The notes under the pieces were generated by a model. That model was given only the letters and a program-made list of their open reading frames with translations, searched no databases and was not told where the DNA came from. A DNA stretch of 6,547 nucleotides from Candidatus Aminicenantota bacterium (GTDB taxonomy: Bacteria > Acidobacteriota > Aminicenantia > Aminicenantales > Aminicenantaceae): the NCBI GenBank assembly GCA_016926925.1, contig JAFGNQ010000495.1, positions 1 through 6,547 on the forward strand. Reading direction: 5' to 3'. The position numbers and the translations under genes were made by a program. Below are positions 32 through 6,547 of the stretch, piece by piece. Each line of letters starts with the position of its first letter. Position 1 is the first letter of the stretch.

Positions 32-75
32 TTTCAGTTTGCTGGATTGTTTGTGACTCTATCGAGCTGCCGTTC

Positions 76-91
76 TAGCCTGGATTATTCA
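76..91 (+). repeat. Left terminal inverted repeat of copy A (16 bp)
   Basis: TAGCCTGGATTATTCA is the exact reverse complement of positions 318-333. Pairing stops outside at 75/334 (C opposite A) and inside at 92/317 (C opposite A). A related sequence, CCTGAATTATTCA, with one difference over 13 bases, occurs at 6419-6431 as the end of copy B. A 16-bp perfect match at this spacing is very unlikely by chance. Confidence 0.85.
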
Positions 92-119
92 CGAGTCGAG
101 ATTGCTGTAGAAGCGAGGC

Positions 120-160
120 ACAAAGGATGCAGCTGTGGTTGTCCACCGCAAATCCTTTGT
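120..160 (+). repeat. Imperfect hairpin inside copy A
   Basis: ACAAAGGAT (120-128) pairs perfectly with ATCCTTTGT (152-160). Inside, GC (132-133) pairs with GC (148-149), and GTGG (135-138) pairs with CCAC (143-146) around a TTGT loop. This gives a 41-nt stem-loop with small internal loops. There is no T-run after it, so it is not an intrinsic terminator. The matching region of copy B lies at or beyond the window edge, so conservation cannot be judged. Confidence 0.6.
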
Positions 161-174
161 AACGAAGCAGATGC

Positions 175-205
175 AGTAAGATCGGCTCGCCCGATGGGTA
201 AAAAA
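175..205 (+). repeat. Conserved 31-nt core of the repeat, copy A
   Basis: This segment matches the reverse complement of 6485-6515 at 29 of 31 positions, with no gaps; the differences fall at 187 and 195. The weaker match extends left to the shared AACGAAG (161-167). It contains the ATCGG/CCGAT hairpin and ends in an A-run that forms the start of the long-range stem. It is the best-conserved part of the element and the natural probe for finding further copies. Confidence 0.85.
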
Positions 206-317
206 TGTCGATTGAAAATAAAAAGTGCAATGAGAATGAAAAAATATGATTGATTCCACGGAAAAACGAGGAAAGTTCTGATTTCATATTGTTTGGTATA
301 AGTATCGACATTTTTTA
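199..317 (+). repeat. Long-range stem of copy A (14 bp, 91-nt loop)
   Basis: Positions 199-212 pair perfectly with 304-317 (TAAAAAATGTCGAT and its complement). The 91-nt loop contains a second 7-bp stem, AATATGA (243-249) with TCATATT (284-290). In copy B the same stem forms at the same register with a different sequence: the pairs at 206/310, 211/305 and 212/304 change from T-A, A-T and T-A to C-G, G-C and C-G, and 208/308 changes from T-A to G-U. Paired changes of this kind support selection on base pairing. Confidence 0.75.
294..302 (+). promoter_or_regulatory. Candidate extended -10 promoter for the gene at 352
   Basis: TGG directly before TATAAG (297-302) forms a TGn-TATAAt-like extended -10. 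The -35 region at the usual distance (about 274-280) is poor, which extended -10 promoters tolerate. It would start transcription near 309, inside the 3' arm of the stem at 304-317, giving a leader of about 40 nt ending in a strong ribosome binding site. It lies in the variable loop of copy A and has no counterpart in copy B. Confidence 0.35.
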
Positions 318-333
318 TGAATAATCCAGGCTA
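318..333 (+). repeat. Right terminal inverted repeat of copy A (16 bp)
   Basis: TGAATAATCCAGGCTA is the exact complement of 76-91. It ends six bases before the AGGAGG of the gene at 352. If the stem forms in RNA, it would lie next to the ribosome binding site and could influence translation. The sequence further inside, read inward from this end, matches copy B over 18 of 20 bases (CCTGRATTATTCATAAAWAA). Confidence 0.85.
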
Positions 334-339
334 ATCACG

Positions 340-351: not shown

Positions 352-933
352 ATGAAAAGATATGGTTTTTTACTTCTAATTTTCGTTTTTGCGGCTGTCT
401 TAGTCTTAGTTCTGCAAAAATCCGGCCTGTGGAAAACCATGACGGCCGAAGATCTCGAAGCTTCCATCGAAGTGGTGGATGTCAAAACATCCTGGGTGGA
501 TAAATACTATCAACCCTGGCCTCAAAGACTGATCCTTGTACCATCCATATCTTTTCGTGTCAAGAACATAACAGAAAAGCCCATCAAATACATTAATTTC
601 AATGCCAACTTCCGCTTTCGGGACGACTACGAAAATTTGGGCGACGCATATCTGGCAGCTATCCGAGGAGAGCCGGTTCCTCCCGGAGAAAAAAGCGATG
701 TTATCCATTTGAAGAGCAATTACGGAGTCGAGGGAAAAACTTTAGCTTCTTTCAAGGACAATCCGCAGTGGAAGATCGTGATCGTGAAGCTTTTTGCCCA
801 AGGGCAGGGATCTCAATTCCTCCCCTTAGGGGAATGGGAAGTATCCAAACAGATAGATTTCAAAGAGCCGGAACCTGTCGGGATGAAAAAACAGGAGACA
901 AAAGAAGAACTGAAAAACGAGGAAAAGAAGTAA
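352..933 (+). CDS. Hypothetical membrane-anchored protein with a predicted beta-rich domain
   Basis: A 193-residue protein I do not recognise as a named family. Residues 6-21 form one strongly hydrophobic segment after MKRYG. With no cysteine for lipidation and no clear signal peptidase site, this looks like an uncleaved N-terminal anchor with the rest outside the cytoplasmic membrane. Residues 60-170 look beta-rich, with alternating hydrophobic strands such as LILVPSISFRVKN and KYINFNANFRFRD. A conserved-looking PVPPGEKSDV turn (108-117) and a late strand pair (141-170) follow. The pattern of a 'VKN...EKPIKYI' strand followed by 'PPGE' resembles FxLYD or other immunoglobulin-like exported domains, by inference only. 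The tail (171-193) is highly charged and Lys/Glu-rich. The start is fixed by a perfect AGGAGG. The gene stands alone on its strand, converges on the mfd-chaperone cluster, and is preceded by repeat copy A. Coding status is well supported; function is unknown. Confidence 0.85.
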   Translation: MKRYGFLLLIFVFAAVLVLVLQKSGLWKTMTAEDLEASIEVVDVKTSWVDKYYQPWPQRLILVPSISFRVKNITEKPIKYINFNANFRFRDDYENLGDAYLAAIRGEPVPPGEKSDVIHLKSNYGVEGKTLASFKDNPQWKIVIVKLFAQGQGSQFLPLGEWEVSKQIDFKEPEPVGMKKQETKEELKNEEKK

Positions 934-5900: not shown

Positions 5901-6377
5901 CAGGACTCGAAGCAGTCTGTCCCGTCCGAGTTCCTCACCCTTTTCGACATTCAAGAACATACTTTTCAAAGCTGAGGGACAAGGAAACGGTTTGAGCAGC
6001 CCGAAAAGATTGGTGACGATAAAACGAGGCTTTACGTGCTCCAGTGCGTAGAAAAACTTCATACGAGAAGATACAGTATCCAGGGATGGCGAAATCTCTC
6101 TGTAAGGTGTCTCTGATAGTGCCGGGAGTACGGCCAGGGATGGCTCGATTCCGAATTGGGACAGATAAAAGCGGCACTGTTCTTCAAAATCGGGTAATGC
6201 ACGATGGGAAGGTCTGATAAATATAATTTTTTTTCGGGTGTGTTTGAGCAGGCTTGCCATCAAGTAAGGCTTGGCAGGCTCGACAATCCCTGTGATACAA
6301 ACCTTCTTCTCTCCCCGGTCCACTGCTTTTACGAGGTCTTGAAACTCGCCAGTCTCTGCAAGAAAGTCCAAACTCAT
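2952..6377 (-). CDS. mfd: Transcription-repair coupling factor Mfd
   Basis: A 1141-residue cytoplasmic ATP-driven DNA translocase, close to the E. coli length of 1148. It removes RNA polymerase stalled at lesions and recruits UvrA for nucleotide excision repair. All modules are visible. The N-terminal UvrB-like region (1-230) includes the UvrA-contact stretch (EYAWRGGIVDVFSP 175-188, RTFDPSTQRS 207-216). The RNA-polymerase-interacting domain lies at about 478-550 (DLSEGDYVVHTDCGIGVF, YRDDDKLFVPVEDL). The helicase-type motor has Walker A GDVGYGKTE (632-640), DEEQ (733-736), TATPIPRTL (759-767) and QLRGRVGRS (902-910). A TRG-type translocation motif (LEIRGAGNFLG 954-964) and the C-terminal regulatory domain (about 1005-1141) follow. 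No truncation or missing catalytic residue is seen. The ATG is the first start after an in-frame stop. It has only GAGG two bases away, too close for a normal Shine-Dalgarno; a TTG at codon 3 (6371) would be better spaced. It is first in the cluster with two exported chaperones. Confidence 0.97.
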   Translation of the reverse strand: MSLDFLAETGEFQDLVKAVDRGEKKVCITGIVEPAKPYLMASLLKHTRKKIIFIRPSHRALPDFEEQCRFYLSQFGIEPSLAVLPALSETPYREISPSLDTVSSRMKFFYALEHVKPRFIVTNLFGLLKPFPCPSALKSMFLNVEKGEELGRDRLLRVLHDYGYSQEDIISSHGEYAWRGGIVDVFSPWETYPFRIEFSGDKVLSLRTFDPSTQRSVSKTISLIVPSLREFPGTPEFVQKWIKNARSIHKNVFPKDLSEKAECLRKGEVFPSFFFQSLLNKDRFVPFPDYLGDHLLVVDDIQEVRRDWEETFESLQEQFQEIKEQKRMALPPEKIYPPALWEQIGREALSLSDLVSPDAPTIRFSFQSISRFANRIPFFLDYMKKSQEERERSYVYVANPGVRRKFAHLLSQNQIPYLETSDPYTVPVDGAVALLVGGLSQGFRYPKEKVAVFSESDIFTEDKILVSRPRIKPFTTHFQDLSEGDYVVHTDCGIGVFSGLVKLEVDKKKREFIFIRYRDDDKLFVPVEDLNLVQKYANLGTGAPTLNKLGSLNWERTKARTKKAIETMAKELLHLYARRRAVKGHRFSQKGVWESDFEKTFEYSETEDQLRAMADINEDMESESPMDRLLCGDVGYGKTELAMRASFKAVMDGKQVAVLCPTTVLASQHHKTFQKRMVFFPVRIEMLSRLQRHAEQKRIVEDLKKGLVDVVIGTHRLFAKDVQFRELGLLVVDEEQRFGVSHKEKIKKIKANIDVLTMTATPIPRTLNMSLSGLRDISLIETPPKDRLAIHTVVTTFSRDLIASAIKAELGRGGQVYFIHNKIDDIDSIAAMIKKWVPQAEVVTIHGQMPNRALEERMVSFIKRTHNVLVSTTIIENGIDIPLVNTLLVNHADRFGLAQLYQLRGRVGRSSRQAVAYFLVPPFTDLTPLAKERLKALQEFSELGSGFRLAAKDLEIRGAGNFLGSAQHGYMEAVGFNYYMNLLENTIKELKGEREEEVKSEINMKVDIRIPEDYLPQINLRLDLYKRISSVADLEEIELIRAEMKDRYGPFPSSIKNLLRYGAVKYLAQKIRIQAIDRVGRKIIVKFLLSPHADLAKMIQLLEQHTGSITPQGVMSLNLTSESEAGIMDETIFILKKLSLM

Positions 6378-6383
6378 GGCCTC

Positions 6384-6413
6384 ATTATACGTTTTATTTG
6401 TCCGGTGAGTCTA
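6384..6413 (-). promoter_or_regulatory. Candidate mfd promoter placing the start site at the ATG
   Basis: On the minus strand, TAGACT (6413-6408, four of six -35 matches) lies 18 bp before a perfect TATAAT (6389-6384). Only six bases separate the -10 from the ATG, so initiation at the usual seven bases falls on the A of the ATG (6377). This is the geometry of a leaderless mRNA and agrees with the lack of a properly spaced Shine-Dalgarno. It lies between mfd and the end of repeat copy B. Confidence 0.5.
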
Positions 6414-6418
6414 TCCGA

Positions 6419-6547
6419 CCTGAATTATTCATAAATAACGACGGCACTTTCAATCTCAAGATTTTTTTCTTCTTATTGCCGCCGTTTTTTACCCTTCGGG
6501 CGCGCCGATCTTACTACAAAGCCTTCGTTGCAGCCCACTCGCGGTAG
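6419..6547 (-). repeat. Structured dispersed repeat, copy B (partial, runs off the window)
   Basis: Read on the minus strand, this region repeats the plan of copy A. It has AACGAAG (6529-6523), the 31-nt core (6515-6485, 29 of 31 identical to 175-205), a long-range stem, and the end TGAATAATTCAGG (6431-6419). The stem pairs 6491-6477 with 6446-6432: 13 Watson-Crick pairs, one G-U (6482/6441) and one A-A mismatch (6487/6436). The loop is only 30 nt against 91 in copy A. A near-palindrome (AATCT at 6452-6456 with AGATT at 6459-6463) sits in that loop. The G-U would be C-A on the opposite strand, so the fold favours the strand in mfd's direction. The other end of the element, and a partner for TGAATAATTCAGG, should lie beyond the window. 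No coding region is supported in 6378-6547. Confidence 0.72.

Follow-up and report, generated by a model that had tools for sequence, protein, structure and literature searches.

Hairpins in small mobile repeats are often regarded as incidental features of the DNA. Among the described families, the repeats reported here are reminiscent of the Correia or NEMIS elements of Neisseria, which, in the available part of PMC2229807, are short and non-coding, carry terminal inverted repeats (TIRs) and a target duplication, lie beside genes and have an RNA fold. The same part proposes that NEMIS hairpins are RNase III targets in adjacent mRNA, and together with the available part of PMC3733652 it presents MITE RNA folds as acting on neighbouring mRNA. 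As described there (PMC2229807), Correia/NEMIS elements are about 107 or 155 bp long with 24-bp TIRs and TA termini, whereas the elements here, which we set apart on that description, measure 252–256 bp in their commonest form, have 13-bp CCTGRATTATTCA ends, a 4-bp YTAR duplication and a four-way junction, and occur in another phylum. ERIC/IRU and YPAL repeats are likewise dispersed, intergenic and mobile, with stable folds that can affect mRNA (PMC2229807, PMC3733652, available parts), but their ends and sizes differ, and in those texts they appear as long stem-loops (CIR as two arms and a linker) with no four-helix junction.

In the Bacillus cereus group, the MITE-like repeats bcr1–bcr3 often lie in UTRs or operon spacers, and some of the families bcr1–bcr18 have conserved secondary structure. 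The available part of PMC3446304 names the MITE-like (bcr1–3) and the structured repeats (bcr10, bcr18) apart, whereas the element here is both; the host is also different, and here too the separation is by description. REP, REPIN and CGTC-tagged palindromes share with our element a dispersed, palindromic and intergenic character, but REPs are GTAG- or CGTC-tagged units of 20–40 bp (PMC3733652, available part) and the element here has 252 bp, TIRs and a target duplication.

The window, by which we mean the whole 6,547-nt stretch of DNA that was analysed, contains two copies of this element, A and B. The Rfam comparison that the preliminary description had called for gave no match to the elements in the window up to E 10, nor to the element in seven loci up to E 1. 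The literature searched contained neither the end sequence TGAATAATTCAGG nor any joint mention of Aminicenantes and "miniature inverted", and no description of the family was recognised in the related literature; six 13-mers of the core occurred in studies that, by title and the start of the abstract, are unrelated human, animal or virus work. We consider it likely that copy A, which is intact, and copy B, which is partly visible, belong to a new MITE-like family of the Aminicenantales with an interior under selection for its single-strand fold, probably at the level of RNA.

The two copies and the covarying four-way junction

The window encodes a 193-aa protein, two PpiC/SurA-like proteins and Mfd; these genes place it near Candidatus Aminicenantes, the best match over the SurA-like protein being 59% identical. 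The features that concern us are the following.

75..78, + strand: left flank CTAG, imperfect 4-bp target duplication (YTAR)
79..330, + strand: copy A, complete mobile element of 252 bp, bounded by TIRs, one of 100 aligned full copies
79..91, + strand: left terminal inverted repeat, 13 bp, CCTGGATTATTCA, outer stem
92..189, + strand: head hairpin, ~98 nt, internal loops largely conserved (GA-type mismatches, GAGGC/AACGAAG)
190..198, + strand: mini-hairpin CCC-GAT-GGG, with double canonical changes
199..212, + strand: 5' arm of the tail stem, from inverted repeat and covariation
213..303, + strand: tail loop, variable among copies in sequence and length (loop lengths counted with 17-nt arms)
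304..317, + strand: 3' arm of the tail stem, from inverted repeat and covariation
318..330, + strand: right terminal inverted repeat, 13 bp, TGAATAATCCAGG, outer stem, pairing with CCTGGATTATTCA
331..334, + strand: right flank CTAA, three of four letters equal to the left flank
352..933, + strand: 193-aa gene 3' of copy A, without Pfam match, start codon 21 nt past the element
6384..6413, - strand: promoter-like TAGACT-18-TATAAT before mfd, by match to the consensus
6419..6547, - strand: copy B, 5' part missing, cut by the window end, by match to the head model
6419..6431, - strand: right terminal inverted repeat of copy B, TGAATAATTCAGG
6432..6445, - strand: 3' arm of the copy B tail stem, read from the sequence
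6478..6491, - strand: 5' arm of the copy B tail stem, read from the sequence

Model R1, a covariance model that represents the head by 63 copies, copy A among them, matches copy A at 79–198 with E 1.8e-31, a value that is partly by construction. Copy B was absent from the building and is matched at 6547–6492, truncated at its 5' side, with E 7.7e-9.

The stem first noticed in this locus is the fourth arm of a four-way junction in a transposable element. In copy A, positions 199–212 (TAAAAAATGTCGAT) and 304–317 (ATCGACATTTTTTA) pair at 14/14 positions across 91 nt; the 14-bp long-range stem is perfectly complementary, and its presence is confirmed. The corresponding arms of copy B lie on the minus strand at 6491–6478 (TAAAAAACGGCGGC) and 6445–6432 (GCCGTCGTTATTTA). 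The preliminary description had stated that copy B forms the same stem in the same register with altered letters; the register is indeed kept, but only 13 of 14 pairs form, an A-A mismatch at 203/313 having been missed. Its three double changes from A to B (206/310 TA to CG, 211/305 AT to GC, 212/304 TA to CG) and the change of 208/308 from TA to G-U read as it gave them, and so does the loop of 91 nt in copy A. The loop of copy B is 32 nt rather than 30, the smaller figure requiring one extra A-T pair.

As RNA, positions 76–333 fold with z = -10.2, and none of 200 dinucleotide shuffles was equally stable. On the sense strand the consensus consists of a 13-bp terminal stem, the head hairpin, the mini-hairpin and the tail hairpin, which together form the four-way junction, and in copy A no unpaired base separates the four helices.

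For covariation, 116 distinct heads yielded 100 full copies. Left out were four that the script could not place and whose tails are present (L150, L152, L153, L154), nine heads without a right terminal repeat (contig end or degenerate; L168 has truly lost its tail) and three whose right repeat has 3 mismatches (L066, L155, L089). At least 11 of the 14 standard tail pairs form, in fixed register, in 91 of these 100 copies, the window's among them, and the 5' arms are of 43 distinct kinds; six of the nine copies below 11 pairs (L038, L048, L080, L111, L120, L148) show a one-base offset as judged by eye. When the arms were randomly re-paired among copies, 47% still had at least 12 tail pairs, since the A/T part of the arms is common to the copies. 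The count of tail pairs is therefore weak by itself, and the argument rests on double changes.

Double changes from one canonical pair to another were counted on a FastTree tree, with 60 simulations of independent columns on the same tree as the null. All four helices covary: there were 11 such changes in the terminal stem (null mean 0.6, maximum 2), 56 in the head (4.7, maximum 10), 12 in the mini-hairpin (0.8, maximum 4) and 26 in the tail (2.9, maximum 8). The tail result supports the earlier claim that pairing preserved through changed bases marks a selected RNA or single-stranded DNA fold; many further copies with unmatched changes between the arms, named at the outset as the outcome that would count against it, did not turn up. 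In a MAFFT alignment of 40 full-length copies, 95.6% of 2520 cells pair, against 37–42% when slid by 1–3 columns, and 38 of the 63 pairs had changes in both partners, against 4–13 when slid; within the tail helix, 11/15 pairs have a double change and 91.5% of cells are paired. When each column pair was given a G-test against a tree null, just two head pairs were significant (E < 0.05), the best tail pairs reached E 0.15–0.3, and no column pair outside the structure was significant; this test is too weak to carry the case, and the counts of double canonical changes were used instead.

Movement and spread within the order

Further copies, which the preliminary description had proposed to seek in relatives, are plentiful. 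A full copy from a relative, used as a DNA query against 94 genomes of the order, matched 51 of them (E<=0.001), in a search that scored about eight candidates per genome, gives no copy numbers and returned many matches to the head only. Counts of the end pattern CCTGNATTATTCA in eight relatives were 24, 18, 49, 7, 4, 2, 0 and 0, and its reversed control occurred in none of them; the strict core pattern has 66 matches in one genome (G029) and 55 in another (G046). Contigs often end in or beside a copy, as do six of one assembly (G001 C15, C24, C84, C101, C164, C184) and the window itself at 6547. The repeat thus probably breaks assemblies, and copy numbers from drafts are underestimates.

Copies measured 193–308 bp in 98 of 107 cases and were shorter in nine, the commonest form having 252–256 bp and no transposase gene. 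The 4-mers to the left and right were identical in 29/100 copies, where 6.3 were expected and the maximum over 2000 shuffles was 15; identical 5-mers flanked just 2/100. The commonest flanks (left, right) were TTAA (20, 21), TTAG (6, 13) and CTAG (8, 7), that is, YTAR. YTAR duplications probably resemble those of IS5-like transposons. A filled site is seen in genome G008, where a 256-bp copy occupies the spacer that separates surA from the orthologue of the 193-aa gene (L015). The same spacer is empty in two close relatives (L004, L005), with downstream flanks 97% and 95% identical, and the filled site has two CTGG where the empty one has a single CTGG; the element is also absent from that spacer in the more distant L002 and L003. 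The element thus moves as one unit of ~255 bp with TIRs and a 4-bp duplication mostly at YTAR, and with TIRs at both ends, a duplication of fixed length, one filled and empty site and many short copies it has the characters of a MITE.

Its movement would presumably depend on a DDE-type transposase that acts in trans upon the terminal repeats. Searches of draft genomes with PF13701 (IS1380-type, 6 genomes) and PF01609 (DDE_Tnp_1, 10 genomes) gave transposases, but none had these terminal repeats beside it, and none was adopted as the autonomous parent. Five distant TIR pairs in the fetched loci were considered as a larger transposon and set aside, as their duplications did not match and each pair seemed to consist of two separate elements. 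As for a vehicle, the core pattern had 0 matches among viral contigs, and among plasmids the head from the window had 0 matches and a distant head 3 weak partial ones.

Several copies depart from the common form. One element with family ends consists of the head only (L035 723–847, 125 bp, CTAA duplication), and three of 144–145 bp consist of the tail only (L030 712–855, L053 754–898, L054 736–880), as if the family were modular. In five others (L029 708–1063, L043 1978–2383, L005 1294–1599, L040 408–713 and L049 763–1064) a second, CGTC-like palindrome, recognised by eye as CGTCGTTGCGAGGAGCGAAGCGACG..GCAATC or a relative, is inserted in the head hairpin. This palindrome probably resembles the CGTC-tagged REP super-family. 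Tandem elements whose ends lie a few bases apart occur in seven loci (L074, L075, L080, L066, L091, L093, L095), as if one element had inserted at the duplicated target of another.

Neighbouring genes, strand and competing readings

Only 1 of 114 copies with both ends overlaps a long ORF (>=150 aa). Between genes of the same direction, 41 copies lie in sense and 19 in antisense (p 0.006); the others lie between divergent (25) or convergent genes (10) or have a neighbour missing or more than 400 nt away (19). Gene starts are found on the 3' side of 73 copies and on the 5' side of 47. The genes in these counts are ORFs of at least 80 aa, not curated, and the orientation bias is modest. The element was absent from the mfd leaders of 12 relatives (304–400 nt) and from the leaders of the 193-aa gene at 13 places (42 nt in L001, 400 nt in the others; 14 loci were fetched, of which L015 and L063 coincide); in 9 of these 25 leaders there are isolated words that resemble the ends with at most 3 mismatches. 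Copy B lies upstream of the promoter-like site before mfd and is thus probably outside the mfd transcript. A TATAAT-like -10 box a few bases before the mfd start, seen in the window and in L002–L005 and L011–L013, suggests that this transcript is very short or leaderless.

The terminal repeats contain an AATAAT that reads outward and is exact in 49/100 right ends, and in copy B it forms part of a promoter-like TTGAAA-18-AATAAT. A -35-like hexamer 16–18 nt from AATAAT is present at 5/100 right ends (15% in shuffles) and 14/100 left ends (9% in shuffles), none in the 100 copies having 5/6 letters, so that an outward promoter from this AATAAT is unsupported over the family. Positions 1–420 of the window contain one promoter-like and one terminator-like site, against chance expectations of 1.0 and 0.2. 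In positions 6340–6547, where 0.3 promoter-like sites would be expected, there are two, and one lies inside copy B. A T-run often stands at the end of the tail hairpin; as many copies have none, we did not adopt a terminator role for it.

The two strands of the element can be told apart by their changes, since a Watson-Crick pair that becomes G·U on one strand becomes A·C on the other, and the two should be equally frequent if duplex DNA alone matters. Wobble exceeded A-C among events from Watson-Crick pairs in the head (100:33), the TIR (22:4) and the mini-hairpin (9:3), and the excess in the tail (25:16) was not significant. Unpaired columns show no mutation bias of this kind (changes per column: C>T 4.5, G>A 6.0, A>G 4.0, T>C 3.0). 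Wobble also exceeded A-C in all six slid controls (72:60 to 81:33); strand symmetry, not sliding, is the proper null for this comparison. Compared with its complement, the sense strand gives the better fold in 100/100 elements, 100/100 heads and 73/100 tails, against 104/191 flanking stretches, so the fold is strand-asymmetric. With DNA folding parameters the sense strand is still better in 98/100, and hence a fold of single-stranded DNA is also possible. The strand test of the tail stem being weak (25:16; 73/100), selection at the level of RNA is better seen in the head hairpin.

These results bear on several readings of the stem. Were duplex DNA all that matters, the stem would be an extended TIR or a cruciform read by a transposase, and would covary because both ends have to suit one enzyme. 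The presence of TIRs and a 4-bp duplication agrees with this, and so do the three tail-only elements, in which the tail arms join the terminal repeats directly as one long TIR, and the tail stem itself, which is without clear strand bias. We nevertheless think it unlikely: one arm is internal, not terminal, in copies A and B and the other composites, the interior head and mini-hairpin covary, and neither the better sense fold of every element nor the wobble excess in head and TIR would be expected. Alternatively, the matching changes may stem from copying between the arms of a palindrome, by template switching or gene conversion, and not from selection. Quasi-palindromes are known to undergo such correction, the arms of the tail are A/T rich and close to palindromic, and the tail of some distant copies resembles a reversed head by eye. 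Such correction would, however, erase wobbles and mismatches, and here G-U persists (TIR pair 5/259 is GU in 33/40, head pair 18/109 UG in 35/40) and the GA-type internal loops have largely been retained throughout the family, which makes copying a rather improbable source of the pattern.

It is also conceivable that the elements act on the genes after them, either as cis-regulatory RNAs in the manner of riboswitch-like leaders or as outward promoters. The end of copy A 21 nt before a start codon, the surplus of gene starts on the 3' side and the outward AATAAT, with its promoter-like setting in copy B, all point in that direction; but tens of copies per genome, a target duplication and an empty site are at odds with it, the element is absent from the 25 orthologous leaders, copy B precedes the likely mfd promoter, the -35-like hexamers have the frequencies given above, none with 5/6 letters, and Rfam gave no match. 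We give this explanation hardly any weight. Selection of the interior as a single-strand fold is thus the reading that we favour, most likely acting between moves in RNA read through from neighbouring genes. The fold may act within untranslated regions as a module that insulates or stabilises, by analogy with NEMIS and ERIC, or may protect the element itself. The surplus of sense copies between genes of the same direction and the single overlap with a long ORF speak for RNA. Against this reading, or limiting it, are the absence of a partner transposase from our searches, the sense advantage that DNA parameters also give, the weak strand signal of the tail, the wobble excess in the slid controls, the weak G-test, the probable position of copy B outside the mfd transcript and the modest orientation bias. 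The family offers many diverged natural copies, on which the fold can be examined as one would a functional RNA, and this includes a strand test that duplex-DNA explanations fail.

Related cores elsewhere in the phylum

Under strict filters and with nine candidates scored per genome, model R1 matches 17 of 396 genomes of the phylum. Eight of these lie outside the 94 genomes of the order (G192, G228, G274, G286, G301, G312, G338, G405), and in G286 and G301 the model is matched only in part. The pattern GATGCRAGGC-N25-55-AACRMAGCAGATG occurs in 15/396 genomes of the phylum, with 0 for the reversed control, and in 0/398 genomes of the Pseudomonadota, the phylum of Rugamonas.

Other ends (GGGYTCGCGCARAAATAA...) surround the core in G338, G274 and G405. 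By our own counts, identical TTA or TAA flanks are present in 12 of 13 such copies, and the minimum-energy fold of the sense strand is four-way in 9 of the 13, L211, L225, L236 and L237 folding otherwise. A search for enclosing inverted repeats (>=18/24 pairs, ungapped) found them for 20 of 34 cores; several of the misses fall at the ends of contigs or belong to genomes of the order in which the ends are shorter. Besides CCTGRATTATTCA, the end types, as read, are GGGYTCGCGC, GGGCATGCGC, GTACAGCTCC, GAGCCTGTCC, TGTCCTGTCC, GCAGGCTGCT and CAGSCCGTGG, of which GGGYTCGCGC and GGGCATGCGC may be related.

Perhaps, then, though we lean somewhat against it, the four-way-junction core is a module at the level of RNA that outlives its transposons, a structured RNA spread throughout the phylum by swapping ends. 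The module would comprise the head (GATGCRAGGC ... AACRMAGCAGATG), the mini-hairpin and a paired tail, and its occurrence within several unrelated types of terminal repeat is a suggestion that we make tentatively. In that case the conserved thing would be the folded cargo and not the transposase ends; and if the core is truly common to unrelated terminal repeats, a selected RNA function of MITE interiors becomes directly testable within one phylum.

In several distant Acidobacteriota copies (L208, L224, L235–L237, L212, L209) the tail resembles a reversed head by eye, and the element may therefore derive from an inverted dimer around a CCCGAAGGG centre. Among the seven loci compared with Rfam, L206 is the only one with matches above the gathering threshold, which lie outside the element: two copies of the Acido-Lenti-1 motif (RF01687), at 845–890 on the minus strand and 991–1036 on the plus strand, stand inverted ~100 nt apart near the element, and the motif may itself be the terminal repeat of a mobile element.
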